Source: Microbacterium testaceum StLB037 (lineage in GTDB: Bacteria; Actinomycetota; Actinomycetes; Actinomycetales; Microbacteriaceae). Taken from it: a stretch of DNA of 64,000 bases. The notes beneath the pieces are model-generated. The model saw nothing but the letters and a program-made list of their open reading frames with translations, did not search any database and was not told the DNA's origin. The stretch is taken from the NCBI RefSeq assembly GCF_000202635.1, contig NC_015125.1, positions 682,001 through 746,000 on the forward strand, in the 5' to 3' direction. Both the position numbers and the translations under genes were made by a program. Below, piece by piece: positions 2,547 to 52,005 of the stretch; position 1 is the first letter of the stretch, and the number at the start of each line of letters is the position of its first letter.

Positions 2547-3986
2547 ATGGCCTCGTCGCTCGAACTGACCACGCTCGGACACCGCATCCGCCACCACCGC
2601 CTCGCCCGCGGGCTCACGCTCGATGAGCTCGGCGCGCTCGTGGGCGTCGCGGGCAGCCAGCTCAGCCTGATCGAGAACGGCAAACGCGAGCCCAAGCTCT
2701 CGCTCCTGCAGGAGATCGCGCGGGCGACCGAGACCGAGGTCACCGAACTCCTGTCCACCGAGCCGCCGAACCGCCGGGCGGCGCTGGAGATCGAGCTCGA
2801 GCGCGCGCAGTCGAGCCCGTTCTTCCAACAGCTCGGCATCCCCCCGGTGAAGGTGACCAAAGGCACCACCGACGAGACGATCGAGGCGGTGCTGGGCCTT
2901 CACCGCGAACTGCAGCGGCGCGAGCGCGAGACGATCGCGAGCCCCGAAGAGGCACGGCGCGCGAACACCGAGATGCGCCTGCGCATGCGCGCGGTCGACA
3001 ATCACCTGCCCGACATCGAGAAGCTCGCCGAGAAGCAGCTCAAAGCCGCCGGCCACGGCACGGGGGCGCTGACCCACCGCACCGTCAGCATCATGGCCGA
3101 GCAGCTGGGCTTCGAGCTGATCTACGTCAGCGACCTGCCCCACTCGGCGCGGTCGGTGACCGACCTCGAGAACGGCCGGATCTACCTCCCGCCCGCCTCG
3201 ATCCCCGGCGGCCACGGCCTGCGCTCGATGGCGCTGCAGGCGATGGCCCACCGCCTGCTCGGGCACCGCCCGCCCACCGACTACGCCGACTTCCTCCAGC
3301 AGCGCCTCGAGATCAACTACTACGCGGCCTGCTGCCTCATGCCGGAGACGAGCTCGGTCGCGTTCCTCGCGCAGGCGAAGAAGGACCGCAACCTCGCCGT
3401 CGAGGACTTCCGCGACGCCTTCGGGGTCACGCACGAGGCCGCCGCGATGCGGATGACGAATCTCATGACCGCACACCTCGGCATCCGGTTGCACTTCCTC
3501 CGCGTCGACGGCGACGGGGCGATCTCGCGGGTGTACGAGAACGACGGCCTCCCCCTGCCCACCGACGTGACGGGGTCGGTCGAGGGACAGATCGTGTGCA
3601 AGAAGTTCTCGGCGCGGTCGGCCTTCGCCGAGCACAACCGCACGACCGAGCACTACCAGTACACCGACACCCCCGCGGGGACGTTCTGGTGCTCGACGCA
3701 GACGGGAACCACCTCGGACGGCGACTTCTCGATCACCGTGGGAGTGCCGTTCGACGACGCGCGGTGGTTCCGCGGCCGTGAGACCTCGACCCGGGGCGTC
3801 TCGCGCTGCCCCGACGAGTCGTGCTGCCGTCGACCCGAGTCGGACGCGGCGGCGCGCTGGCAGGGCAAGGCCTGGCCGAGCGCGCGCGTGCACCGGCACA
3901 TGTTCTCGCCGCTCCCCCGCGGCATGTTCCCCGGTGTCGATGACGCCGAGGTGTTCGCGTTCCTGGATCGGCACGCGGACGGCTGA
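2547..3986 (+). CDS. ramB: RamB/ScfR-type short-chain fatty acyl regulator (XRE HTH + IrrE-like domain)
   Basis: A 479-aa DNA-binding regulator. Residues about 8-65 form a Cro/C1 helix-turn-helix ([27 protein letters not shown]). The centre (about 180-300) is an IrrE/M78-like domain in which the peptidase HExxH is degenerate (MAHRLLGH), so proteolysis is unlikely. The C-terminus carries a cysteine cluster (CPDESCCR, near residue 421) typical of the ScfR/RamB C-terminal domain. In Corynebacterium glutamicum RamB controls acetate metabolism genes, and ScfR proteins sense short-chain acyl-CoA. Its divergent placement next to pckG, with a palindrome in the shared promoter, suggests it regulates pckG and itself. 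The exact orthology to RamB is inferred. Confidence 0.85.
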
Positions 3987-4013
3987 GGTCTCGCGCCCTC
4001 GCGTCGCGCCGGC

Positions 4014-4101
4014 GGGCCGAACTCCGGAGAAGCGGGGCGAGACGGTCCGCCGAAGGCCCGTTCCGCCGCTGCCGGCCCCGAAACTCAGGAGTTTCGCACG
4101 C
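4014..4101. repeat. dispersed palindromic element family A, copy 1
   Basis: Left arm GGGCCGAACTCC (4014-4025) and right arm CGAAACTCAGGAGTTTCG (4079-4096) followed by CACGC. The same two modules recur at 10456-10543 and 40989-41075. It lies in the 414-bp gap between the ramB-like gene and the 4401 operon; the rest of that gap holds no gene, only the promoter region near 4342. Confidence 0.75.
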
Positions 4102-4341
4102 AGCGCGGCGGGGAGACGCCTGGATGCCAGGACCTCGGGCCCTTTCCGGGTGCCGGGCCGTGGCATCCGGGGCTCACGGCGCGGTCTGCAGCCCGCGCGT
4201 TCACGCGCGAGTTCGCTCAGACGCCGTCGCCCGTGCGCAGCATCGCCCGCTGAAGGCCGGCGCCTCTTGGTCGCGCGCCCGTCGTGAGCACGGCATCCCG
4301 CGCACGAGGTCCGGTAATCGGACTGTCATGCACGACGTGGT

Positions 4342-4392
4342 TTGACGAAACGTAAAAGATTTACATTTACGGGACACACACCGCTACGGAGG
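4342..4392 (+). promoter_or_regulatory. probable promoter/operator of the FolE-like transporter operon
   Basis: TTGACG (4342-4347) could serve as a -35. It is followed by an inverted repeat with arms CGTAAA (4351-4356) and TTTACG (4366-4371), a locally AT-rich patch in a very GC-rich gap. The Shine-Dalgarno GGAGG (4388-4392) precedes the ATG at 4401. The inverted repeat is a candidate operator for the LacI-type protein encoded last in the operon. No TPP or other known riboswitch pattern was seen here. Confidence 0.45.
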
Positions 4393-4400
4393 CTCCCGAA

Positions 4401-5537
4401 ATGTCACACCTTCGCACCGTCCTGTCCCCTGCCCCCTCTTCTCCGACGCCGCGCGGCCCCTCGACCCGCGCCTCGCGTCGCCGTCGCCGCGTCGCCACGA
4501 CTGCGGCCGGCGTCCTCACCCTCGCCCTCGTCGTCTCGGGGTGCGCCTCGCCCGCATCCTCGTCGGGGAGCGCCAGCTCCAGCTCTTTCGGCACCGCCAG
4601 CGTGGCCCTGAGCTGGATCAAGAACTACGAGTTCGCCGGCTACTACTTCGCCGAGGACGACGGCGACTACACCGATGCCGGCTTCGACAAGGTCGATCTC
4701 ATCGCCGGCGGTGGCAACACGAACTCCTGGGATCTCGTCCTCGGAGGCCAGGCGCAGATCGGCCTCGCGTCCGACCTCACCGGAATCACCGGCGCCATCA
4801 ACGACGGCGCGGGCCTGAAGATCATCGGCGCGCAATTCGTGAAGAACCCGGTCGGCTTCGTCTCGCTCGCGAAGAACCCCATCCGCACCGTCGCCGACCT
4901 CAAGGGCAAGCGCATCGGCGTCGACGCGGGTGGCAAGCTCGCCGTCGAGGCGGTGCTGAAGGCCAACGACCTTCCCGCCGACACGGTGGAGTTCGTCTCC
5001 GTCCCCAACGGTGTCGACCCCCTCATGAACGGCGAGGTCGACGCGCTCATCGGCTTCCTCACCAACTACCCCATCGCCGTCAAGAACGCCGGCGGCGATG
5101 TGGTGACCATGTCCTTCGCCGACGCGAACTACGCGCAGTTCGGTGACGCCGTCGTCGTCAGCGACAAAGAGCTGGCCGAGAACCGCGAGGAGCTCAAGGC
5201 GATCATGAAGGCCAGCATCGAGGGCTGGAACAGCGCACTCAGCAAGGGAACGGATGCCATCGCCGACATCGCCATGAAGCACGGCGGGGCCGACAACGGC
5301 CTCGACCGCCAGCTCCAGGTCGACTCCGCAAGCGTCCTGCCGTCGTTCATGCTGACGCCCGACACCGTGAAGAACGGCATCTTCACGCTCACGCCCGACC
5401 TCATCGACCAGGCCGTCTCCTCGCTCGCCGCGGCCGGCATCACAGCCGACCCGAGCATGTTCGACACGTCCCTGCTGCAGGAGGTGTACGCCGAGAACCC
5501 CGACCTGATCCCCGGCTTCACCGTTCCGGCATCCTGA
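4401..5537 (+). CDS. NMT1/THI5-type ABC transporter substrate-binding lipoprotein
   Basis: Extracytoplasmic solute-binding lipoprotein of 378 aa. A long basic N-region leads to a hydrophobic stretch and a lipobox (VVSGC, lipidated Cys48). The mature part begins VALSWIKNYEFAGYYFAED, matching the NMT1/THI5 pattern seen in proteins binding thiamine pyrimidine precursors, riboflavin-like compounds, nitrate or taurine. The start has GGAGG 8 nt upstream. It opens a seven-gene operon with two permeases, an ATPase, a FolE-like enzyme, a creatininase-family hydrolase and a LacI regulator. The substrate is unknown; the two enzymes suggest a pteridine, pyrimidine or purine-derived compound rather than sulfonates. 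Confidence 0.88.
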   Translation: MSHLRTVLSPAPSSPTPRGPSTRASRRRRRVATTAAGVLTLALVVSGCASPASSSGSASSSSFGTASVALSWIKNYEFAGYYFAEDDGDYTDAGFDKVDLIAGGGNTNSWDLVLGGQAQIGLASDLTGITGAINDGAGLKIIGAQFVKNPVGFVSLAKNPIRTVADLKGKRIGVDAGGKLAVEAVLKANDLPADTVEFVSVPNGVDPLMNGEVDALIGFLTNYPIAVKNAGGDVVTMSFADANYAQFGDAVVVSDKELAENREELKAIMKASIEGWNSALSKGTDAIADIAMKHGGADNGLDRQLQVDSASVLPSFMLTPDTVKNGIFTLTPDLIDQAVSSLAAAGITADPSMFDTSLLQEVYAENPDLIPGFTVPAS

Positions 5538-5589
5538 CGCTCGTCACCCCGCACGTCGACACCCCGCACCCCGACCGAGAGGACGCCGC

Positions 5590-6390
5590 GTGATGATCCC
5601 GACTCCCGTGCGCGGCGTCCTCTTCGGCGCCGCGGGACTGGGCGTGCTGCTGGTCGCCTGGCACATCGTCGCCGTGACGGTGTACCAGCGCGCCAACGGC
5701 AGTCCCGGCCCCGTGCCACCCCCGCTGCCCGTGTTCGCCCGGGCGCTCGACGGTCTGTTCGGCGGCGCCTACGCCGAGGGACTCGCGGCGACCGCGGGGG
5801 CGGCCGTGACCGGGTACGCGGTGGCCGTCGTGATCGCTCTGGGGCTCGGCATCCTGGTCATGATCGCCCCGCCGCTGGGTCCCTTCGCCTCGCAACTGGG
5901 TGTCGTGGCCGCGTGCGCACCCGCCGCGGCCATCGCCCCGATCGTGGTGCTGCTGAGCCCGTCGGGCAGCCGCGCCGTGAGCGTCGTGCTCGCGCTGCTC
6001 GCCGTCGAGTTCCCCCTCGTGATCGGCGTGCTGCTCGGGCTGCGCTCCGCCGCCCCCGCCCAGATCGACCTCGTCCACGCGTACGGCGGAGGCGCCTGGA
6101 CGGCCATCCGCAAAGTTCGGGTCATCTCGGCCATCCCGGCCCTGCTGGCGGCGCTCAAGCTCGCCGCCCCCGCCGCCTTCCTCGGCGCGATGACGGGTGA
6201 GTTCTTCACCGTCGGCGTCGACGAGGGCGCCGGGCGCCTGCTCATCTCGCAGCAGTACGTCGGCGACTACACCGGCATGTGGGCGATCGCCCTCCTCGCC
6301 ACGGTCGTCTCCGCGCTGGGCTACGGCGCGATCGCGCTGCTCGGGCGCGTGCTCGCCCCCTGGACCGCACACACCGGGAGCATCCGATGA
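5590..6390 (+). CDS. ABC transporter permease (BPD family), subunit 1
   Basis: Integral membrane permease of 266 aa with about six hydrophobic segments. The cytoplasmic coupling (EAA-like) loop is VHAYGGGAWTAIRKVRVISAIPA, positioned as in SsuC/ThiX-type permeases. GTG 5590 has GAGAGGA about 7 nt upstream; an ATG immediately follows at 5593 and is an alternative start. Its last codon overlaps the ATG of the next permease (ATGA), so translation is coupled. It forms the heteromeric channel of the NMT1-type importer. Confidence 0.88.
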   Translation: MMIPTPVRGVLFGAAGLGVLLVAWHIVAVTVYQRANGSPGPVPPPLPVFARALDGLFGGAYAEGLAATAGAAVTGYAVAVVIALGLGILVMIAPPLGPFASQLGVVAACAPAAAIAPIVVLLSPSGSRAVSVVLALLAVEFPLVIGVLLGLRSAAPAQIDLVHAYGGGAWTAIRKVRVISAIPALLAALKLAAPAAFLGAMTGEFFTVGVDEGAGRLLISQQYVGDYTGMWAIALLATVVSALGYGAIALLGRVLAPWTAHTGSIR

Positions 6391-7217
6391 TCCGCCTGCC
6401 CGCCTGGGTCTGGACGACCCTGTGCACGCTCGGCACCGCCGCGCTCCTGCTGGTCGGGTGGCAGCTGGCCATCACGTTCTCCGGGCTGAGCCCCTACCTC
6501 GCCAAGACCCCGGTCGACGTGTGGCGGTACCTCTTCGTCGACGGCGTCGGCAACCCGGCCGAGGCCGCCGAGCGCCGCGCTGCGCTCGTGCCCATGATCG
6601 GCGTCACGCTCGGGCACAGCGCCATCGGTCTGCTCCTCGGCATCACCGCCGGATTCATCGGCGCGGTCGCGCTGACCGTCTCTCGGGCGCTGCGCTCGAT
6701 CTTCCTCCCGCTCGCGCTGCTGCTGCAGACCGTCCCCCTGATCGCGATGGCACCGGTCATCTACGCGGTGTTCGGGTCCGGCATCCTGACCGCCGCCGTG
6801 GTGGCCGCGGTCGTCACGTTCTTCCCTCTGCTGATGAACATCGGCGCGGGGCTGTCATCCTCCACGCCGGAGACGGTGGACCTCGTGCACGCCTATGGGG
6901 GCGGGCGCTGGACGCTGCTCCGATTCGTCCAGCTGCCGGCATCCCTTCCCTCGCTCTTCGCCGGTCTCAAGCTCGCCGCACCGGCCACGGTGTCGGCGGC
7001 GACGCTCTACGAGTTCCTCTTCTCGTTCGAGGGGCTCGGCGCGAACCTGCTGACGAGCAAGTCGTACTCGGACTACGGGCTGCTGTGGACGCTTGTCGTG
7101 ATCACGGTGCTGCTCTCGCTCGCCGCGTACGGTCTGGTCGTCTTGGCCGAGACGCTCCTGCTCGCCGGTCGCTTTCCGCCGCGCGCTTCGACTCCCGCCC
7201 AGAAAGGCCTCGCATGA
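6387..7217 (+). CDS. ABC transporter permease (BPD family), subunit 2
   Basis: Second permease, 276 aa. It is related to subunit 1: the coupling loop VHAYGGGRWTLLRFVQLPASLPS is nearly the same, suggesting an old duplication and a heterodimeric channel. Several strongly hydrophobic helices are visible. The start at 6387 is chosen because it overlaps the upstream stop as ATGA; a longer in-frame extension exists but would overlap the first permease by over 100 bp. The stop likewise overlaps the ATPase start (ATGA). Confidence 0.87.
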   Translation: MIRLPAWVWTTLCTLGTAALLLVGWQLAITFSGLSPYLAKTPVDVWRYLFVDGVGNPAEAAERRAALVPMIGVTLGHSAIGLLLGITAGFIGAVALTVSRALRSIFLPLALLLQTVPLIAMAPVIYAVFGSGILTAAVVAAVVTFFPLLMNIGAGLSSSTPETVDLVHAYGGGRWTLLRFVQLPASLPSLFAGLKLAAPATVSAATLYEFLFSFEGLGANLLTSKSYSDYGLLWTLVVITVLLSLAAYGLVVLAETLLLAGRFPPRASTPAQKGLA

Positions 7218-7972
7218 CCGCGTCCGGCGTCCACATCCGTGCCCTCACGCGCCACTTCGCCACCCGGGGCGGCCCGGTGGTCGCGGTGGACGGCGTCGAC
7301 CTCGACACCCCCCGCGGCTCGTTCCTGTCGCTGCTCGGCCCCTCCGGGTGCGGCAAGTCCACCGTGCTGCGCATGCTCGCCGGTCTCGACACCCCCACCT
7401 CGGGCTCCGCGACAGTCAACGACCTGACGCCCGCGGCCCTGCGGCGCACCCACGCGTACGGCATCGCGTTCCAGGATCACGCGCTGCTGCCCTGGCGCAC
7501 CGTGGAGCGCAACATCGCGCTCCCGTTCGAGATCGCCGGGCTCCCCGTCGACAGGGAATGGGTACGCGAGCTCCTGCACCTCGTCCGCCTCGAGCAGTTC
7601 GCGAAGGCTCGACCGTGGCAGCTCTCGGGAGGAATGCGCCAGCGCGTCGCCATCGCCCGTGCCTTGGCGCTCCGCCCGAGCGCACTGTTCCTCGATGATC
7701 CGTTCGGCGCGCTCGACGACGTCACGCGGCAGCGCCTCAACATCGAGCTGCAACGACTGTGGAGCGAGCAGCAAGCCACCACCGTCATGGTCACACACGG
7801 CGTGCAGGAGGCCGTCTTCCTCAGCGACCAGGTCGCGGTGATGAGCCCGCGTCCGGGTCGCATCAAGGAGGTCATCGACATCGACCTCCCGCGGCCGCGC
7901 ACGCTCGAGATGACGAGCACGCCCGAGTTCCACGCGTACGTGGACCGCGCCACCGAGCTTCTGTTCCACTGA
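7214..7972 (+). CDS. ABC transporter ATP-binding protein (SsuB/TauB/ThiZ type)
   Basis: The 252-aa ATPase energises the importer. Walker A GPSGCGKST is near residue 38, the Q-loop FQDHALLPW near 90, the signature LSGGMRQRVAIARAL near 137, Walker B ALFLDDPFGALD near 157 and the switch histidine in VTHGVQEA. LLPW plus DDPFGALD is the common pattern of nitrate/sulfonate/taurine/thiamine-precursor import ATPases. It starts by ATGA overlap with the second permease and is followed after 21 nt by the FolE-like gene. Confidence 0.92.
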   Translation: MTASGVHIRALTRHFATRGGPVVAVDGVDLDTPRGSFLSLLGPSGCGKSTVLRMLAGLDTPTSGSATVNDLTPAALRRTHAYGIAFQDHALLPWRTVERNIALPFEIAGLPVDREWVRELLHLVRLEQFAKARPWQLSGGMRQRVAIARALALRPSALFLDDPFGALDDVTRQRLNIELQRLWSEQQATTVMVTHGVQEAVFLSDQVAVMSPRPGRIKEVIDIDLPRPRTLEMTSTPEFHAYVDRATELLFH

Positions 7973-7993
7973 TCCCCCGAAAGGCCGCACCCC

Positions 7994-8596
7994 ATGACCG
8001 AACTCACCGCCGTCGCCGCCACCCACATCACCCCCGACCTGGATGCCGCGGAGGAGGGCATCCGCATGTACATGCGCGCGATCGGTCTCGACACCGAGCA
8101 CCCCACCCTCATCGACACTCCGCGCCGCGTCGCGCACGCCGGCCTCGACCTCTTTTCGGGGATGGCGGGCGATCCTCATCGCGCGCTCGGCGGCGGCGAG
8201 CCCATCGAGGGCGTCTACCCCGGACCCGTGGCGGTGCACGACATCCCCTACTCCTCGATGTGCGAGCATCACCTGCTGCCGTTCCAGGGCACCGTGTCGG
8301 TGGCCTACCTGCCCGACCGCGCGCTCGCCGGGATCGGGGACTTCGACGCGATGCTGCGCGTGCTCGCCGCCCGCCCGCAGATGCAGGAGCGCCTGGCCGA
8401 CCAGATCGCCGAGGTCGTCTCCGACACGCTCGGCGCGAAGGGCGTGCTCGTCCGGTTGACCGCGCAGCACGCGTGCATGTGGGCTCGCGGCGAACGCACC
8501 GTCGGGTCGACGGCGTTCTCCCTCGCGTCCCGCGGGATCTACGACACCGACGCCGCGGCTCGGGCCGAGGCACGGGTGCTGCTCGGACTGCACTGA
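7994..8596 (+). CDS. folE: GTP cyclohydrolase I (FolE)-like enzyme with altered phosphate site
   Basis: FolE-fold enzyme of 200 aa. FolE opens the guanine imidazole ring of GTP, passing through a formamidopyrimidine, to make dihydroneopterin triphosphate. Zinc ligands Cys90, His93 and Cys161 and the catalytic histidines His92 and His159 are present (CEHHLLPF; QHACMWARG), as is QERL at 131-134. Aligned with E. coli FolE by a constant 20-residue offset (numbering from memory), the triphosphate contacts Lys68, Ser135, Lys136 and Arg139 are His48, Gly115, Asp116 and Ala119, while Arg65 and Arg185 are kept. That argues for a smaller or unphosphorylated substrate. It lies inside a transporter operon, not among folate genes, so it is probably a specialised paralogue. 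Confidence 0.85.
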   Translation: MTELTAVAATHITPDLDAAEEGIRMYMRAIGLDTEHPTLIDTPRRVAHAGLDLFSGMAGDPHRALGGGEPIEGVYPGPVAVHDIPYSSMCEHHLLPFQGTVSVAYLPDRALAGIGDFDAMLRVLAARPQMQERLADQIAEVVSDTLGAKGVLVRLTAQHACMWARGERTVGSTAFSLASRGIYDTDAAARAEARVLLGLH

Positions 8597-8597
8597 G

Positions 8598-9392
8598 ATG
8601 ACGAGCTCGACGCAGATCTCCGATGTCGCCGCACGAGAGGGGGTGGCGCTCGTCCCCATCGGCGCGACCGAACAACACGGGCCACACCTCCCCGTCACGA
8701 CCGACACCACGATCGCGGCGGCCTTCGCCACGGCCGCGGCCGCGCGTGCCGCGAAAGAGGTCGCGACGTGGGTGCTTCCCCCGCTGCCCTTCGGCTTCTC
8801 CCCCGAGCACGCCGGACGTCCCGGCACGATCGCTCTGTCGCCGCAGACCCTTCTGGCCATCGCCGACGACATCGGTCGCGGCGTCGCGGCCAGCGGCATC
8901 CGGCGCCTTCTGTTCGTCAACGGGCATGGCGGCAATCCCGAGCTGTTGCACGTGGCCTGCCGTCAGCTTCGCGAGCGACGGGGCCTCGCGGCGTTCGCCG
9001 TGCACGTGCCCGGGCTCGCGCTCCCGCCCGAGCTCGCCGAGGGGGTGACCACGGGCGATCTCGACGCGCACGCGGGTCACTACGAGACGAGCGTGCTGCT
9101 CGCCCTCGACCCGGCGGCGGTCGAGATGGATGCCGCCCGGGCGGACGGCCTCGAGGAGGTGAGGGCTGCCGCAGACTCCCTCACCCGGCCCTTCGGTGCG
9201 GTGAGCGTGCCCTGGCACGTCGACGACCTGTCCCGCTCCGGAGTGATCGGCGACCCCACCACGGCCGATGCCCGGTGGGGCGAGCGGGCGTTCGCCGCGC
9301 AGGCTGGCGCGCTGGCCGATATCGTGCGCGCCGTGGCGGCGCATCCCCTTCCGCCCGAGTGGGTACACTCGCGGCGGGGGGATGCCGAATGA
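8598..9392 (+). CDS. creatininase-family amidohydrolase
   Basis: A 264-aa metal-dependent amidohydrolase. The ligand pattern E-x-H-x8-D is seen at Glu25, His27 and Asp36 (EQHGPHLPVTTD), followed by VNGHGGN and the late motif HAGHYETS. The family includes creatininase, the archaeal formamidopyrimidine deformylase ArfB and the mycofactocin protein MftE; no mycofactocin genes are nearby. It begins 1 nt after the FolE-like stop, so the two are co-translated and probably act on the same compound. ArfB acts on a formamidopyrimidine of the kind FolE forms as an intermediate, so a deformylase or ring-amidase role is a reasonable guess, not shown. Confidence 0.85.
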   Translation: MTSSTQISDVAAREGVALVPIGATEQHGPHLPVTTDTTIAAAFATAAAARAAKEVATWVLPPLPFGFSPEHAGRPGTIALSPQTLLAIADDIGRGVAASGIRRLLFVNGHGGNPELLHVACRQLRERRGLAAFAVHVPGLALPPELAEGVTTGDLDAHAGHYETSVLLALDPAAVEMDAARADGLEEVRAAADSLTRPFGAVSVPWHVDDLSRSGVIGDPTTADARWGERAFAAQAGALADIVRAVAAHPLPPEWVHSRRGDAE

Positions 9393-10390
9393 CCGACGGT
9401 CCAGGCCGGACGCCGACCCTCCAAGAGGTGGCGACCGAGGCGAAAGTGAGCCTCGCGACCGCGAGCAATGCCCTCACCGGCAACCGCGGGGTGAGCCCGA
9501 AGCTGCGCGACCGCGTGCTCGAGGCGGCGCAGCGCGTCGGCTACCCGCGCGCGTCCGGGCGGCGGCGCACCGACCGCACGACCGTGGGCATCGTGCTGCC
9601 CGACGTGCGGCATCCGGCCTACGCCGAGCTCGCCCACGCCTTCGAGCGCGAGGGCGCGCAGCGCGACTGGGCTCTCGTCCTCGCCGGTTCCGACTACGAG
9701 CCCGACAACGAGCTGGAGGCCCTCGAGAACCTCGTGCGCAGCACGGACGGCGTCCTGCTGTCGCCCTCGCGCCCGCCGCGTTCGGGCGTGCACCGGCTCC
9801 AGGCGAGCCCGGTGCCGATCGTTGCGTGCGATGAGCCGGCCGACTCCGCCCTGATCGGCGGGTGGGTGCGCTCCGACAACTTCGGCGGCGGGCGCGTGGC
9901 CGCCCACCATCTCGTGGATGCCGGCGGTAGCCGCTTCGCCATGCTTGGCGGCGAGGGCTACCTCCCGTCGACGAAAGAGCGGCGCGAGGGCTTCCTCGCC
10001 GGACTCGCCGATCGGGGCGTCGCCGACGACGACGTCCTGATCATCGGCGAGAACTACGGCATGGACGGCGGCCAGAGCGCGATGGCCGAACTGCTCGAGA
10101 CCGACGCTGCCGTCGACGCGGTCTTCGCGGTGAGCGACCTGCACGCGGTGGGGGCGTTCTTCCGCGCCCTGCAGGAGGGCCGATCGGTGCCCGACGACCT
10201 GCTGCTGTGCGGCTTCGATGGTGTCGCCTGGACGCGGCAGATCTCCCCCACCATCACGACGGTGCGACAGGACTGGGGCAAGATCGCCGGCCGTGCGATG
10301 GACATCCTCGACACCCTCATGGCCGGTGGCGACGGCGACCGTGCCGTCATCCCCGTCGAGCTGGTCCCGGGCGAGTCGACGCGGCGCTGA
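9389..10390 (+). CDS. LacI-family transcriptional regulator
   Basis: A 333-aa repressor-type protein. The N-terminal HTH (TLQEVATEAKVSLATASNALTG) is followed by the hinge helix (KLRDRVLEAAQRVGYP) and a periplasmic-binding-protein-like effector domain ending near residue 330. The start is set by ATGA overlap with the creatininase-family gene; the frame stays open far upstream but that part is antisense to nothing meaningful. As the last gene of the operon it probably autoregulates it, with the inverted repeat at 4351-4371 as a candidate operator. The effector would be the imported compound or its product. Confidence 0.92.
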   Translation: MTDGPGRTPTLQEVATEAKVSLATASNALTGNRGVSPKLRDRVLEAAQRVGYPRASGRRRTDRTTVGIVLPDVRHPAYAELAHAFEREGAQRDWALVLAGSDYEPDNELEALENLVRSTDGVLLSPSRPPRSGVHRLQASPVPIVACDEPADSALIGGWVRSDNFGGGRVAAHHLVDAGGSRFAMLGGEGYLPSTKERREGFLAGLADRGVADDDVLIIGENYGMDGGQSAMAELLETDAAVDAVFAVSDLHAVGAFFRALQEGRSVPDDLLLCGFDGVAWTRQISPTITTVRQDWGKIAGRAMDILDTLMAGGDGDRAVIPVELVPGESTRR

Positions 10391-10455
10391 CGCCCACCGT
10401 CGGCTCCAGCTCCGGGCGGCAGCGGGTCCGGCGGCAGGCGGGCCGGGCGGCAAGC

Positions 10456-10543
10456 GGGCCGAACTCCTGACAAATCGTCACCCGCCCGGATCGAACACCC
10501 CCACACACGTCTCCGCCGCCCGAAACTCAGGAGTTTCGCACGC
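10456..10543. repeat. dispersed palindromic element family A, copy 2
   Basis: Modules GGGCCGAACTCCTGA plus CAAATCGTC (10456-10479) and CGAAACTCAGGAGTTTCG plus CACGC (10521-10543). The left module complements the right one, so the transcript can fold into a long hairpin. It sits between the convergent LacI and succinate-semialdehyde dehydrogenase genes; the rest of 10391-10614 holds nothing recognisable. Confidence 0.8.
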
Positions 10544-10614
10544 ACCGCGGCGGCCAGAACGACGGATGCCGCGACCCCCCGCCGCGGAGCGCCGGGGCCG
10601 TGGCATCCGGTGTC

Positions 10615-12087
10615 TCAGGCGTAGGGGTTCGCCGTGAGCGTGTACTTCGTCTGCAGGTACTCGTGGATGCCCTCGTCGCCGCCCTCGCGGCCGAGGCCGG
10701 ACTGCTTCCAGCCGCCGAACGGGGCCGCGGCGTTGGAGACGACGCCGACGTTCAGGCCCATCATCCCGGTCTCGAGCTTGTCGATCATGCGCTGACCCCG
10801 CGCGAGCGACTCGGTGAAGACGTACGAGACGAGGCCGTACTCGGTGTCGTTGGCGAGGCGCACGGCGTCGTCCTCATCGTCGAAGGGGATGATCGCGAGG
10901 ACGGGTCCGAAGATCTCCTCGCGGAGGATGTCACTGCCCGGCTGCACGTCGGACACGACGGTCGGCTCGAAGAACGTGCCGGGGCCGTCGATCGGCGAGC
11001 CGCCGGTGGTGACCTTCGCGCCGCGCTCGACGGCATCCCCCACCAGGGTCTTGGCCTTGTCGACCGCGCGGTCGTCGATCAGGGGGCCGATCTGCACGCC
11101 CTCCTCGGTGCCGCGGCCGATCTTCATGCCCTGCACGCGCTCGGTGACACGGCGGGTGAACTCCTCGACGACCGAGCGCTGCACGATGAAGCGGTTGGCC
11201 GCGGTGCACGCCTGACCGATGTTGCGGAACTTCGCGAGCATCGCCCCGTCGACCGCCTTGTCGAGGTCGGCGTCCTCGAACACGACGAAGGGGGCGTTGC
11301 CGCCGAGCTCCATCGAGGTGCGGAGCACCCCGGGCGCCGCCTGCTGCAGCAGCTTCACGCCGACCGGGGTGGAGCCGGTGAACGAGAGCTTGCGCAGGCG
11401 CGGGTCGGAGATGATGCGCTCCGAGACGGGGCCGGTGTTGGTCGTGGTGACGACGTTGACGACACCCGCGGGGACGCCGGCGTCCTGCAGGATCTGCGCG
11501 AAGAACAGCGTCGTGAGCGGCGTGAGGGTCGCGGGCTTGATGACGACCGTGCAGCCGGCGGCGAGCGCGGGCGCGATCTTGCGCGTGGCCATCGCGAGCG
11601 GGAAGTTCCACGGGGTGATGAGGTAGCACGGGCCCACGGGGTGCTGCGTGACGATCATGCGGCCGGTGCCCTCGGGGTTCGCGCCGTAGCGGCCCTGGGT
11701 GTGCGCGGTGACCTCGCTGAACCAGCGGAGGAACTCCCCGCCGTAGCCGACCTCGCCGCGCGCCTCGGCGAGGGGCTTGCCCATCTCGAGCGTCATCAGC
11801 AGCGCGATGTCCTCCTTGCGCTCCTGCAGCAGGTCGAACGCGCGGCGGAGGATCTCGGCGCGCTCCCGCGCGGGGGTCGCCGCCCAGGACGGGAACGCCT
11901 CGGCCGCGGCATCCATCGCCGCCACTCCGTCGTCGACCGTGGCGTCGGCGATCTCGTGGATGACCTCACCGGTGGCGGGGTCGTTCACGGCGACGGTCTT
12001 GCCGCCCGTCGCCGCGCGCCACTCGCCGTTGATCAACAGGCCGGTGGGTACGGATGCCAGCAGCTCGCTCTCGCGCGAATCGGTCAT
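10615..12087 (-). CDS. gabD: NAD(P)-dependent succinate-semialdehyde dehydrogenase
   Basis: A 490-aa aldehyde dehydrogenase that oxidises succinate semialdehyde to succinate. It has the catalytic glutamate in MELGGNAPFVVFEDAD and the catalytic cysteine in GQACTAANRF, plus FTGSTPVGVKLL; the GNAPFVVF context is characteristic of GabD-type enzymes. The start at 12087 has AGGAGG 5 nt upstream; the frame extends further but through a region without coding character. It is monocistronic here. It could use the succinate semialdehyde released by the HpaI aldolase of the homoprotocatechuate operon in this window, as well as GABA-derived substrate. Confidence 0.9.
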   Translation of the reverse strand: MTDSRESELLASVPTGLLINGEWRAATGGKTVAVNDPATGEVIHEIADATVDDGVAAMDAAAEAFPSWAATPARERAEILRRAFDLLQERKEDIALLMTLEMGKPLAEARGEVGYGGEFLRWFSEVTAHTQGRYGANPEGTGRMIVTQHPVGPCYLITPWNFPLAMATRKIAPALAAGCTVVIKPATLTPLTTLFFAQILQDAGVPAGVVNVVTTTNTGPVSERIISDPRLRKLSFTGSTPVGVKLLQQAAPGVLRTSMELGGNAPFVVFEDADLDKAVDGAMLAKFRNIGQACTAANRFIVQRSVVEEFTRRVTERVQGMKIGRGTEEGVQIGPLIDDRAVDKAKTLVGDAVERGAKVTTGGSPIDGPGTFFEPTVVSDVQPGSDILREEIFGPVLAIIPFDDEDDAVRLANDTEYGLVSYVFTESLARGQRMIDKLETGMMGLNVGVVSNAAAPFGGWKQSGLGREGGDEGIHEYLQTKYTLTANPYA

Positions 12088-12266
12088 GGGTCCTCCTGGA
12101 TCGGGGCGGGGTTTCCCGCCCATTCTTGTCAGGGCACGCGCGCGCGCCGATATACGTGGCGTACAAAGGGGATGCCGAGATCGCCGCCGTGGACGCCGGG
12201 GGCGGTGCCGCGGTCCGCGTCGCGCGGGGACCGTGTCCCGCGCCGCTCGGCGCCGCGCCACCCCCG

Positions 12267-12333
12267 CGATAAACGCCATTCCTCGCCGGAAACGCCGCGA
12301 CGCCGCGTTTCTGGCGAGGATCGGCGTTTATCG
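12267..12333. repeat. dispersed palindromic element family B, copy 1
   Basis: Arms of 29 nt (12267-12295 and 12305-12333) are complementary except at three positions, separated by 9 nt. Each arm begins with CGATAAACGCC. A second copy lies at 50390-50456. The element sits in the 276-bp gap between the gabD start and the monooxygenase stop. Nothing else is recognisable in the gap. Confidence 0.85.
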
Positions 12334-12363
12334 GGAGCATCCGCGGCGAGCAGAACGCACGCG

Positions 12364-14208
12364 TCAGGTCGCCGCGGCGACCGCCGGCACGGCCACCACG
12401 CCCGCGAGGAACCGCTCCAGACCAGCCGGGTCGGTCAGCGGCAGCACGTGCGCGACGTACTGATCGGGGCGCACCACGACCACGGCCCCCGCGGCGCCGA
12501 TCCCGCGCTCGGCGAAGATGTCGGCGCTCGTCCACGCCGAGGGCGCGGCGGCGAAGACCTTCTCGAGGTCGGTCAGGCCGAGCGGCCCGGAGCGCGGGCG
12601 GAACAGGGCGGGCACGTCGACGACGTCCTCCCACCGGCCGGGGAAGACCACCTTCACGTCGAACACGGCGTCGAGGTCGGCACCCTCGGGCGTGAAGCGC
12701 TCGACGATCGGGAGCGCGGCCGCCGCCCACGCCCGCAGAGCCGAGCCCTCGGCATCCGCGAAGGCGTACACGCGCCAGCGTCCGTCTGCGCGAGCATGGT
12801 GCCCGAGATGCACGGCGTTTCCGTCGCACACCCGCACGACCTCCACGCTCTGGAAGCGCTTGCCGACGGGGAATCCGGATGCCAGCTCCTCGGCCGCGTC
12901 CGACGCGACGATGCGCGAGGGGGCGTAGTGCGTGCCGAAGCCGGAGGGGAACTCCGCGGTGGCGAGGTAATAGGTCGCGAGCTCGTCGGGGTCGGTGATC
13001 TCGCCGGGCTTGCGCGCCATGAGCGACGACCACTCGCGGTCGAAGTCGATGAGCTGCTGGGCGACCGGGCGCCGTTCGGCGTCGTAGGTGCGCAGCAGGT
13101 CGACGGGAGCGAGACCGGTGAGCACGTGCCCGAGCTTCCAGCCGAGGTTGAAGCCGTCCTGCATCGAGACGTTCATCCCCTGCCCCGCCTTCGCGCTGTG
13201 CGTGTGACAGGCGTCGCCGGTGAGGAAGACGCGGGGGTTCTCGAGGTCGTCGACGAACTGGTCGGTCACCCGGTGGCCCACCTCGTAGACGCTGTGCCAG
13301 GCCACCTGCTTCACGTCGAGCGTGTACGGGTGGAGGATCTCGTTCGCCCGGCGGATGATCTCCTCGATCGGCGTCTGGCGCACGCGCCGATCGTCGTCGG
13401 CGGCGACCTCACCGAGATCGATGTACATCCGGCTGAGGTACCCGCCCTCGCGCGGGATGTGCAGGATGTTGCCGGCCGCGGCGTTGATCGCGCACTTGAT
13501 GCGCCAGTCAGGGAAGTCCGTCTCGACGAGAACGTCCATGACACCCCACGCGTGCTGCGCGGCAGCACCGACGTGGCTTCGTCCGATCGCCTGGCGCACG
13601 CCACTGCGGGCCCCGTCGCACCCCGCGACGTATTTCGCACGGATGGTGCGCTCCCCCGCGTCGGTACCCACGCGCACATCGACGTGGTCGTCCTGCACCT
13701 CGAGCCCCAGGAACTCCACGCCGTAGTCGGGCACGATGCGCGCCGGGCCGTTCGCCGCCGCCTCGGCGAAGTAGTCGAGCACGCGCGCCTGGTTGACGAT
13801 CAGGTGCGGGAACTCGCTGATCTTGTAGCCGTAGTCCTCGGTCCGGGTCGTGCGGACGATCCGCTCCGGGTTCTCGGGGTCGGGCGCCCAGAAGTTCATC
13901 CAACCGATGTTGTACGCCTCGGCGGTGATGCGGTCGGCGAACCCGAAGGCCTGGAACGTCTCGACGCTGCGCGGCTGGATGCCATCGGCCTGACCCAGAG
14001 CGAGCCTGCCGTCGCGCTTCTCGATGAGGCGCGTGGTGAGCTGCGGGAACTGCGACATCTGTGCCGCGAGCAGCATGCCCGCCGGCCCGGAGCCGACGAT
14101 GAGCACGTCGACCTCGTCGGGGAGGTCGTCCGGGCGGTCGATGCCCGTGCCGGCGGCGTTCTGCACGCGCGGGTCGCCGGAGACGTAACCGTGGTGGTGG
14201 AACTGCAT
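12364..14208 (-). CDS. FAD-dependent aromatic monooxygenase (phenol 2-monooxygenase / 3-hydroxybenzoate 4-monooxygenase type)
   Basis: A 614-aa flavoprotein hydroxylase that uses NAD(P)H and O2 to hydroxylate a phenolic substrate. The FAD-binding Rossmann motif VLIVGSGPAGMLLA is near residue 36, a central catalytic region follows, then the second FAD motif FLTGDACHTHSAKAGQGMN and a C-terminal thioredoxin-like domain ending in YVAHVLPL. Size and domain order match phenol hydroxylase and 3-hydroxybenzoate 4-hydroxylase (MobA). GGAGAAACG precedes the ATG at 14208. It is divergent from an IclR-like regulator with two palindromes in between. Whether it serves the dihydroxyphenylacetate pathway at 41194-48029 is unknown. 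Confidence 0.87.
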   Translation of the reverse strand: MQFHHHGYVSGDPRVQNAAGTGIDRPDDLPDEVDVLIVGSGPAGMLLAAQMSQFPQLTTRLIEKRDGRLALGQADGIQPRSVETFQAFGFADRITAEAYNIGWMNFWAPDPENPERIVRTTRTEDYGYKISEFPHLIVNQARVLDYFAEAAANGPARIVPDYGVEFLGLEVQDDHVDVRVGTDAGERTIRAKYVAGCDGARSGVRQAIGRSHVGAAAQHAWGVMDVLVETDFPDWRIKCAINAAAGNILHIPREGGYLSRMYIDLGEVAADDDRRVRQTPIEEIIRRANEILHPYTLDVKQVAWHSVYEVGHRVTDQFVDDLENPRVFLTGDACHTHSAKAGQGMNVSMQDGFNLGWKLGHVLTGLAPVDLLRTYDAERRPVAQQLIDFDREWSSLMARKPGEITDPDELATYYLATAEFPSGFGTHYAPSRIVASDAAEELASGFPVGKRFQSVEVVRVCDGNAVHLGHHARADGRWRVYAFADAEGSALRAWAAAALPIVERFTPEGADLDAVFDVKVVFPGRWEDVVDVPALFRPRSGPLGLTDLEKVFAAAPSAWTSADIFAERGIGAAGAVVVVRPDQYVAHVLPLTDPAGLERFLAGVVAVPAVAAAT

Positions 14209-14249
14209 CGTTTCTCCTGACGTCGTCGTCGGACTTGCTCGCCGCGGGG

Positions 14250-14289
14250 GTTCGTTCTATATTCGAACAGAGCGTTCTTCTATCGAACG
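14250..14289. promoter_or_regulatory. tandem palindromic operators between monooxygenase and IclR-like gene
   Basis: Two adjacent inverted repeats occur: GTTCG-9nt-CGAAC (14250-14268) and CGTTC-7nt-GAACG (14273-14289). They share the GTTCG half-site and lie 23 bp apart, about two helical turns. Both are immediately upstream of the regulator and in the promoter region of the monooxygenase, so they are probably its binding sites. Confidence 0.7.
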
Positions 14290-14305
14290 AGAGGTTAGCT
14301 CCCCC

Positions 14306-15010
14306 ATGCCCGCACGGCAAGAGGCGTCACCCGCGTCGCAGACGCTGAGCCGCGGCATCCGGTTGCTCGAAGAGCTCGCCGACGCGCGCACTCCCCTGTC
14401 GATCGACGACCTGGCGGCCCGCGTCGAACTGCATCGCTCGGTCGCGTACCGACTGCTGCGCACCCTCGAAGACCACGGATTGGTGACCCGGGATGCCGCG
14501 GGCGCGGTGCGTCTCGGAACGGGTCTCGCGGCGCTGGCGGCGGGCGTCGCCGCCGACCTGCAGGCCGAGGCTCTGCCCGAGCTGACCGCGGCGGCGAACG
14601 AGCTGGGCATGACGTGCTTCCTCGTGGTGCTCGACCACGACGAATGCGTGACGCTCACGAGCGTCGAGCCGCGGCACGCGGTCACCGCCGTCGCTCAGCG
14701 GCCGGGGGCTCGGCATCCGGTCACCCGGGGGGCTCCCGGCCGGGCCATCCTCGCCCAGCTGCCTCCGCGCCGCTGGCCCGAGACCGTCGACGCCCGCCTC
14801 GCGGCCGAGGTCGCGGACGCCGCGGAGCGCGGGTGGGCGACGAGTCACGACGAGGTGGTGCCGTCGCTGCGGGCGGTGGCCGTACCCCTCAGCGTGCAGG
14901 GGCGCCAGCCCGCCGCGGTGGCGGCGGTCTACGTCGCGACCTCCCTCGACGACGCCGCGATCGCCGCGCGCCTGGCAGCCGCCGCCGAAGCGGTGCGCGT
15001 CGCCCTGTAG
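14306..15010 (+). CDS. IclR-family transcriptional regulator
   Basis: A 234-aa regulator. The N-terminal winged HTH spans about residues 10-65 (LSIDDLAARVELHRSVAYRLLRTLEDHGLV). The C-terminal ligand domain is shorter than in classical IclR proteins but keeps the family layout, including the GAPGRAILAQ segment. ATG at 14306 is preceded by GAGAGG. Divergent transcription from the aromatic monooxygenase plus the palindromes between them indicate a local regulator of aromatic hydroxylation. Confidence 0.82.
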   Translation: MPARQEASPASQTLSRGIRLLEELADARTPLSIDDLAARVELHRSVAYRLLRTLEDHGLVTRDAAGAVRLGTGLAALAAGVAADLQAEALPELTAAANELGMTCFLVVLDHDECVTLTSVEPRHAVTAVAQRPGARHPVTRGAPGRAILAQLPPRRWPETVDARLAAEVADAAERGWATSHDEVVPSLRAVAVPLSVQGRQPAAVAAVYVATSLDDAAIAARLAAAAEAVRVAL

Positions 15011-49431: not shown

Positions 49432-50316
49432 TCAGCCGCCGGCGGCGCGCTCCGCGGCCTCGACGACGTTGGTCATCAGCAGCGCGACCGTCATCGGACC
49501 GACGCCGCCGGGGTTCGGCGAGACGAACCCGGCGACCTCGGCCACGTCGGGGTGGACGTCGCCGTAGACTCGCGACTTCCCCGTCTCGGGGTCGGTCTCG
49601 CGCGTCACTCCCACGTCGAGCACGGCGGCCCCGGGCTTGACGTCTTCGGCACGCACGATGTGCTTCACACCCGCGGCGGCGACGATGACGTCGGCCTCAC
49701 GCAGGTGCTGTGCGAGGTCGACGGTGCCGGTGTGGGTGAGGGTCACGGTCGCGTTGATCTCGCGACGGGTCAGCAGCAGCCCGATCGAGCGGCCGATCGT
49801 GACGCCGCGCCCGACGACGACGACCTCCTTGCCCTTCAGGTCGTAGTCGTTGCGGAGCAGCAGCTCGATCACGCCGCGCGGCGTGCACGGCAGCGGCGTG
49901 AGGATCGGGGCGTTGACGTTGAGCACGAGGCGCCCGAGGTTCGTGGGGTGGAGGCCGTCGGCATCCTTGGCCGGATCGATGCGCTCGAGGATCGCGTCGG
50001 TGTCGATGTGCTTCGGCAGCGGCAGCTGCACGATGTAGCCGTGGCAGGCGGGGTCGGCGTTGAGGCGGTCGATGACGGCCTCGACCTCGTCCTGCGTGGC
50101 CTCGGCGGGCAGCTCGACCTGGATCGAGTTCATGCCGATCGCCTCGGACTGCTTGTGCTTCATGCCGACGTACAGCTGCGAAGCGGGGTCGGCGCCGACG
50201 AGCACCGTCGCGATGCCCGGGACGATCCCCTTCTCGCGCAGGGCCGCGACGCGCTCGGTGAGCTCCGCCTTGATCGCCGCCGACGCGGCCTTACCGTCGA
50301 GAATCGTCGCCGTCAT
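49432..50316 (-). CDS. folD: bifunctional methylenetetrahydrofolate dehydrogenase / methenyltetrahydrofolate cyclohydrolase
   Basis: A 294-aa one-carbon enzyme interconverting 5,10-methylene- and 10-formyl-THF. Catalytic lysine in [14 protein letters not shown], the substrate/cofactor motif [10 protein letters not shown], the NADP-binding [14 protein letters not shown] and the closing [15 protein letters not shown]. Compared with the usual GRS(xxx)G, the loop reads [11 protein letters not shown]. The start at 50316 has GAGGGA upstream; a longer frame would include a palindromic repeat. It lies downstream of glyA in the same direction, so the ZTP riboswitch before glyA may control both. Confidence 0.95.
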
Positions 50317-50586: not shown

Positions 50587-51861
50587 TCACTGCTGCAGGT
50601 CGGGGTACAGCGGGAAGGCGTCGGCGAGCTTCGCGACGCGCGCGCGCAGAGCCTCGACATCGGCGCCGGGGATCAGCGCGAGCGCGATGATGTCGGCCAC
50701 CTCGGTGAACTCGGCGTCGCCGAAGCCACGCGTCGCGAGCGCCGGGGTGCCGATGCGCAGGCCCGAGGTCACCATCGGCGGACGCGGGTCGTTCGGCACC
50801 GCGTTGCGGTTGACCGTGATGTGGATGTCGTGCAGCAGGTCTTCGGCCTGCTTGCCGTCGATCTCGGCGTCGCGGAGGTCCACGAGCACGAGGTGCACGT
50901 CGGTGCCGCCCGAGCGCACGGCGATACCGGCGTTCTTGACGTCGTCCTGGGTGAGGCGGTCGGCGAGGATCGACGCTCCCCGAAGCGTGCGCTCCTGGCG
51001 TTCCTTGAACTCGGGCGTCATCGCGAGCTTGAACGCCGTGGCCTTCGCGGCGATGACGTGCATGAGCGGACCGCCCTGCTGGCCCGGGAAGACCGCGGTG
51101 TTGATCTTCTTCGCGAGGGCCTCGTCGTTGGTGAGGATGAGGCCCGAGCGGGGGCCGCCGATCGTCTTGTGCACGGTGGTCGAGACGACGTGCGCGTGCG
51201 GGATGGGCGACGGGTGCACGCCCGCGGCCACCAGACCGGCGAAGTGCGCCATGTCGACCCAGAGCAGCGCACCCACCTCGTCGGCGATCGCGCGGAACGC
51301 GGCGAAGTCGAGCTGACGGGGGTAGGCCGACCAGCCGGCGATGATGACCTTCGGCTTGTGCTCGAGGGCGAGGCGGCGCACCTCGTCCATGTCGATGATC
51401 GAGGTCTCGGGGTCGACGCCGTACGCGACGATGTCGTAGAGGCGGCCCGAGAAGTTGATCTTCATGCCGTGCGTCAGGTGACCGCCCTGGTCGAGGGCGA
51501 GACCGAGCAGCGTGTCTCCGGGGCGCGCGATCGCGTGCAGCACGGCGGCGTTGGCGGAGGCACCCGAGTGGGGTTGGACGTTCGCGAACTCGGCACCGAA
51601 GAGCTGCTTCGCCCGCTCGATCGCGAGCGACTCGGCGACGTCGACCTCTTCGCAGCCGCCGTAGTAGCGGCGACCGGGGTAGCCCTCGGCGTACTTGTTG
51701 GTCAGCACCGAGCCCTGCGACTGCAGCACCGAGACGGGAACGAAGTTCTCCGACGCGATCATCTCGAGGAACCCGCGCTGGCGGTTCAGCTCGCGCTCGA
51801 GCACCTCCGCGATCTCGGGGTCGACCTCGGAGAGGGGGGCGTTGAAGTACGGATCGGTCAT
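50587..51861 (-). CDS. glyA: serine hydroxymethyltransferase
   Basis: A 424-aa PLP enzyme converting serine and THF to glycine and methylene-THF. The PLP lysine is in [43 protein letters not shown] and [13 protein letters not shown] are family signatures. AAGGAGA lies 5 nt before the ATG at 51861. A ZTP (pfl) riboswitch occupies the leader, linking expression to 10-formyl-THF shortage. folD follows downstream. Confidence 0.97.
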
Positions 51862-51916: not shown

Positions 51917-52005
51917 TACCGCATCGACCCAGGCGTGCGGTCGAATACCGTCAAGCGGTCGCTCCCCGGTGGTGGCCCACCTCAACGCCAGTCGCGACGG
52001 TGCCA
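51917..52005 (-). ncRNA. ZTP/ZMP (pfl) riboswitch in the glyA leader
   Basis: Reading the minus strand from 52000, the aptamer core shows GCGACTGGCG, then GGTGGG..CCACC, then CACCGGGGAGCGACC, a variable stem, and the distal CCGCACGCCTGGGTCGATGC. These match the conserved sub-domains and pseudoknot partner of the pfl motif, known upstream of glyA and folD in actinobacteria. TAAAGT (52010-52005) is a possible -10 placing transcription start at the aptamer edge. About 55 nt remain before the glyA start for the expression platform. Confidence 0.85.

Follow-up and report, generated by a model that had tools for sequence, protein, structure and literature searches.

Release of formate by a separate formamidase, after a cyclohydrolase has halted at a formamidopyrimidine, is a logic common to ArfA/ArfB, which open GTP in two steps in archaeal riboflavin synthesis, and to the bacterial protein BrbF. 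The accessible part of the BrbF report describes a creatininase-annotated protein that deformylates AFRPP, the riboflavin formamidopyrimidine, and that has no sequence similarity to ArfB (PMC9478397). In a second line of work, NMT1/THI5-like genes, including importers of the xanthine riboswitch regulon in Proteobacteria, have been tied to purine degradation, and the part of that report available to us calls their thiamin label misleading (PMC7373994). The related ThiXYZ system, with its binding protein ThiY, imports formyl-aminopyrimidine. Here, we analyze a seven-gene operon that resembles each of these systems in part. It lies at 4401-10390 of a 64,000-nucleotide stretch of the Microbacterium testaceum StLB037 chromosome (NC_015125.1, positions 682,001 to 746,000; hereafter the window).

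Our results provide good support for a conserved, dedicated import and processing operon under LacI control. We tentatively read it as serving the uptake and breakdown of a purine-type compound lacking a triphosphate, a reading that we hold possible rather than probable. The operon consists of seven packed open reading frames, each with an ATG start and a TGA stop, and is preceded by a candidate operator:

4348-4368, no strand assigned: operator AAACGTAAAAGATTTACATTT, the palindrome AAACGTAAA-N3-TTTACGTTT with one mismatch
4401-5537, plus strand: NMT1/THI5-type solute-binding lipoprotein-like protein (SBP) of an ABC importer, 378 amino acids (Pfam NMT1, 115 bits)
5593-6390, plus strand: ABC permease A, 265 amino acids (Pfam BPD_transp_1), kept in 12/12 loci
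6387-7217, plus strand: ABC permease B, 276 amino acids (Pfam BPD_transp_1), ATGA overlap with permease A
7214-7972, plus strand: ABC ATPase, 252 amino acids (Pfam ABC_tran), ATGA overlap with permease B
7994-8596, plus strand: FolE-like protein, 200 amino acids, with altered phosphate and ribose site (Pfam GTP_cyclohydroI, 159.2 bits)
8598-9392, plus strand: creatininase-family hydrolase, 264 amino acids, predicted amide hydrolase or formamidase (Pfam Creatininase, 223 bits)
9389-10390, plus strand: LacI-family regulator, 333 amino acids (Pfam LacI and Peripla_BP), ATGA overlap with the creatininase-family gene, kept in 12/12 loci

The measured spacings (55, -4, -4, 21, 1 and -4 nt) bear out the tight packing described in a first-pass annotation of this DNA, namely three ATGA overlaps and gaps of 1 and 21 nt, and Pfam agrees with its family assignments for all seven genes. 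All seven evolve under constraint, with dN/dS values of 0.05 to 0.21 against two relatives. Compared with ArfA/ArfB, the cyclohydrolase of the window is FolE-type and not a GTP cyclohydrolase III (GCH III), and the unit includes an importer and a LacI regulator; the likeness of its creatininase-family protein to BrbF, as the latter is described in the accessible text, is one of description and family, not of sequence comparison. With the purine-degradation importers, as far as the available part of their report goes, the operon shares an NMT1-type binding protein and an ABC module, but FolE-like and creatininase-like genes take the place of their deaminases or oxidases, and its control site is a LacI operator where the xanthine regulon has a riboswitch. 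The binding protein is likewise kin to those of ThiY-type importers in fold and sequence (17 to 21% identical over the fold); unlike ThiXYZ, the unit has no thiamin gene, and a scan of 3900-10700 returned no Rfam match at the gathering threshold, hence no thiamin pyrophosphate (TPP) riboswitch. Riboswitch control was rejected on the strength of this empty scan. The open-access literature yielded no description of the seven-gene set, in line with the earlier remark that no described pathway has exactly these parts.

The operon is defined most clearly by its conservation. The FolE-like proteins form a monophyletic clade, and all seven genes occur in the same order at the 12 other loci of that clade, a count that includes two loci at which a contig end truncates a gene (the SBP gene of L101 and the LacI gene of L108). 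The surroundings are more variable. Both flanks of the window operon recur at five of the 12 loci (phosphoenolpyruvate carboxykinase, an XRE regulator, aldehyde dehydrogenase, a phenol-type monooxygenase and IclR), L101 has the downstream flank up to its contig end, and none of the window's flanking genes was detected within the stretches fetched for the other six. With gene order kept at 12/12 loci while the flanks vary, the seven genes can be regarded as one unit of narrow taxonomic distribution. The FolE-like protein was found in 10 of 295 genus genomes, own genome included, and matched in eight of 398 family genomes (both at E <= 1e-45); four of those eight matches are clade members, from the own genome and three genomes of one other genus, and the other four are weaker, 46 to 51% identical and outside the clade. 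In the order sample the own genome stood alone among 396 (1e-50), and in the class sample it was joined by one folate-cluster FolE among 394 (1e-55). Across these samples, which overlap, the clade was found in Microbacteriaceae only. The conserved co-occurrence that the first-pass annotation proposed to look for across actinobacterial genomes is seen at every clade locus, but in these samples within one family. A tblastn search of plasmids (242 records) gave only matches below 60% identity. A scan of genome contigs with the clade alignment, one pattern of which is common to FolE in general, was dominated by ordinary FolE, and its best 80 loci were used as outgroup only; gene calling largely failed on L166.

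The FolE-like protein retains the GTP cyclohydrolase I fold and much of its active site. In E. coli numbering, none of the 43 clade rows of our alignment has lost the zinc ligands C110, H113 and C181, the guanine-binding Glu152 or Gln151. It differs from GTP cyclohydrolase I in four substitutions and in being a second copy placed in an importer operon. Lys136 is replaced by Asp in 40/43 clade rows against 1/175 others and Arg139 by Ala in 40/43 against 4/175, while position 138 is Asp (43/43 against 0/175) and position 183 Trp (43/43 against 1/175); among the others, rows P0031-P0120 are matches of the window protein and biased to similar FolEs. The picture was unchanged after 90% redundancy removal (29 clade and 146 other rows). 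In the Thermus thermophilus enzyme, the accessible part of a structural report assigns phosphate binding to the equivalents of K136 and R139, and likewise to R65 and R185, and ribose binding to Ser135 (PMC4005822). Two of four published phosphate contacts are thus replaced, K136 by Asp and R139 by Ala. The protein also scores below the cut-off of the folE equivalog model TIGR00063 (139.7 against 181.6).

The own genome encodes a second FolE, which lies between ftsH and folP-folB (names from translations) and scores 199.5 bits against PF01227, versus 159.2 for the operon protein. The possibility that the latter is the organism's sole housekeeping GTP cyclohydrolase, raised in the first-pass annotation, is excluded by this canonical copy, and the operon protein is not the genome's folate-pathway FolE. 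Two FolEs were found in eight of the nine hosts searched with PF01227, out of 13 (G103, G233, G006 and G239 lay outside the search). The case is a warning that a FolE label in a Microbacteriaceae genome may mask a different role.

A further replacement could bear on where the reaction ends. His179 is Gln in 11/43 clade rows and 1/175 others; within the tree the change appears on no fewer than two branches (one that includes L106, L107, P0006, P0015 and P0020, and another with P0023). Reportedly, to judge by the title of a 1999 paper by Bracher, His179 mutants of the E. coli enzyme form 2-amino-5-formylamino-6-ribofuranosylamino-4(3H)-pyrimidinone triphosphate. A FolE that stopped at this formamidopyrimidine would depend on a formamidase for the next step, and the gene that lies one nucleotide past the FolE-like gene of the window belongs to the creatininase family, which includes a known formamidase. 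According to the accessible part of the structural report, His179 protonates N7, and its replacement in E. coli causes activity loss (PMC4005822). The operon thereby provides naturally occurring His179Gln variants among the relatives of GTP cyclohydrolase I, followed by a formamidase-family gene, as a directly testable case.

The creatininase-family protein matches four NCBIfam models, each below its cut-off: MftE is the best (164.8 against 172), followed by the creatininase model TIGR04448 (90.7 against 235), IolN (62.7 against 245) and the ArfB model NF033501 (23.1 against 180). Residues E25, H27, D36, H110, H158 and E163 are invariant in 43 aligned creatininase-family sequences and, by analogy with the family, would have metal and catalytic roles. 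In an alignment read by eye, Trp174 of creatininase, which we take to be a role-bearing residue of creatininase proper, aligns with Asp154 of the window protein. A mycofactocin role was considered and rejected: the MftE score is below cut-off, and just one of the 13 hosts, G683 and not the own genome, has a mycofactocin radical SAM gene.

Both by sequence and by fold, the nearest solved structures of the binding protein are ThiY-type. The gene neighborhoods of sister importers in Microbacteriaceae point elsewhere. Adenosine deaminase lies within 8 kb of these importers at 11 of 19 places, against 0.38 expected, the 8-kb limit having been chosen post hoc with the loci already inspected, and some sister importers lie near phosphorylase, nucleoside hydrolase, xanthine dehydrogenase or urate-pathway genes. 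The genomes in this comparison were the best-scoring 14 of 34 outside the clade, except that G331 stood in for G425. These neighbors, together with the partial accounts of the NMT1/THI5 link (PMC7373994) and of the BrbF precedent, lend indirect support to the outline of the reading and to a substrate that is likely of purine type. NMT1 and thiamin labels, too, may mask a different role in this family. In the own genome the nearest adenosine deaminase lies about 29 kb from the operon. Five sister importer loci (L158, L159, L161, L162 and L165) carry a luciferase-like flavin mononucleotide (FMN) monooxygenase, of NtaA/DmoA type at L162 and judged by similar N-terminal sequence at the other four. 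Adenosine deaminase is nearby at four of the five, and they possibly represent another purine-processing set.

The operon appears to have its own regulatory site. The palindrome AAACGTAAA-N3-TTTACGTTT, allowing up to three mismatches, is confined to a single site in each of 11 of the 13 host genomes, just upstream of the operon, and a control with the pattern read backwards gave 0 matches; no operator match was obtained in G239 or in G103, whose contig ends inside the SBP gene. A palindrome does precede the operon as had been proposed, but the register of the proposed site, CGTAAA-N9-TTTACG, was off. Because the conserved form is single-copy and upstream of the operon, the LacI protein probably has this operon as its sole target. 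Among solved structures it is closest to CcpA-type regulators, and PurR ranks lower.

How these parts work together can be outlined as follows, with hydrolytic ring opening and then deformylation as the best mechanism; we infer what is imported, what the two enzymes do, and that LacI represses in response to a ligand. We envision a scenario in which the NMT1/THI5-type importer takes in a purine-type compound without a triphosphate, and the FolE-like zinc enzyme, presumably derived from a folate-pathway FolE, would open its imidazole ring by hydrolysis, some members at least halting at the formamidopyrimidine. The creatininase-family hydrolase would then remove the formyl group or open the next amide, as ArfB and BrbF do, and LacI would repress the operon through its one palindrome until the ligand appears. 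The salvage or breakdown of an external purine-, pterin- or pyrimidine-like compound, as first proposed, withstands in outline the comparisons of conservation and of second FolEs, apart from its taxonomic breadth. If the scenario is true, FolE chemistry, known for folate and pterin precursors, has been recruited to nutrient breakdown, and a hydrolytic opening of purines is added beside the oxidative urate route. In a bolder and rather unlikely version, the operon would be an oxygen-independent purine route in which FolE opens an imported base or nucleoside at C8 and the creatininase-family formamidase finishes, dispensing with xanthine dehydrogenase and uricase; such a route, if true, is previously undescribed. 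The idea that the operon substitutes for uricase was dropped: uricase was found in 0/10 Microbacterium hosts, but the genus background is also low (57/198 genomes) and Herbiconiux-like hosts have the enzyme.

Several observations weigh against an uptake and breakdown operon for purines. Thiamin or its pyrimidine is the ligand of the closest binding proteins of solved structure, the purine link rests on sister importers that are just 32 to 44% identical, and a classical purine gene is found in neither the window operon nor those of its 12 relatives. Uricase is present in all three Herbiconiux-like hosts, which therefore give no sign of needing a further route. The phosphate contacts R65 and R185 are present in 43/43 clade rows, the window enzyme retains His179, and it passes the cut-off of the NCBIfam FolE subfamily NF006826 (163.6 against 162). 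Moreover, the FolEs of G452 and G613, which lie in folate clusters and are the only FolE found there, are without R139, and Microbacteriaceae housekeeping FolEs such as L001 are without K136 and S135; since folate-cluster and housekeeping enzymes share them, losses of R139, K136 and S135 are by themselves no proof of a new substrate. Finally, the clade FolE is the only one in G387, a draft genome in about 50 contigs.

These points leave room for other explanations. The substrate of the FolE-like enzyme could still be GTP or a different nucleotide, and its product a pterin or formamidopyrimidine destined for a cofactor or signal, with the importer supplying something else. The retained fold, catalytic residues, R65 and R185, the R139-less folate-cluster FolEs and the NF006826 score are all in keeping with this, but Asp136, Asp138 and Trp183 hardly occur outside the clade, the genome already has a canonical FolE and the importer belongs to the unit at 12/12 loci, and we consider it unlikely. 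Members of the creatininase family open cyclic amides or have a variety of substrates. The two hydrolases might accordingly open, in sequence, a non-purine ring with an imidazole or cyclic amide, as the below cut-off matches to the MftE, creatininase and IolN models would allow; Glu152 and Gln151, kept throughout the clade, and the purine genes beside sister importers make this still less likely.

Pterin or folate salvage, in which the FolE-like enzyme would turn imported guanosine-like compounds into dihydroneopterin and so bypass GTP, would account for the FolE fold and catalytic residues as well as for the partial loss of phosphate contacts. We regard it as quite improbable, since Gln at position 179 in 11/43 clade rows would be expected, by analogy with E. 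coli, to stop the reaction short of its later steps, since a canonical FolE is present, and since the creatininase-family gene downstream in 12/12 loci would be left unexplained. Least probable in our view, and very much so, is salvage of breakdown products of the thiamin pyrimidine such as formyl-aminopyrimidine, with ThiY-like import, a creatininase-family deformylase and a side role for the FolE-like protein. That ThiY and a thiamin-bound protein are the closest binding proteins of solved structure fits this scheme, but it is opposed by the empty Rfam scan, the lack of a thiamin gene in the conserved unit, the purine genes beside sister importers and the misleading thiamin label, as the available part of PMC7373994 has it.

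Some loci depart from the common plan. An extra short-chain dehydrogenase/reductase (SDR) gene is inserted between the creatininase-family and LacI genes of two distant operon members, L110 (5722-6456, minus strand) and L108 (521-1252, minus strand), and may add an oxidation or reduction step. The ATPase gene of L108 (2604-3088, minus strand) matches in two pieces, which may reflect an assembly error or decay. At L107, a histidine ammonia-lyase and an amidohydrolase are encoded near the operon. Among the weaker, non-clade FolE matches, L112, L113, L114, L115 and L173 have no importer operon, and the neighbors at L115 look unrelated; folate-cluster FolEs without the Arg139 contact are found in other Microbacteriaceae at L112:6903-7490, L113:7150-7716 and L173:6864-7430.

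Elsewhere in the window, the operon is adjoined at 10615-15010 by genes for an aldehyde dehydrogenase of succinate-semialdehyde type, a phenol 2-monooxygenase-type flavoprotein and an IclR regulator, which we do not count as part of the unit because they were detected in the six closest loci only. A ZMP/ZTP riboswitch (RF01750, 56.1 bits) at 51920-52005 on the minus strand lies upstream of a glyA-like gene (50587-51861) and a folD-like gene (49432-50316), an ordinary set for one-carbon metabolism.

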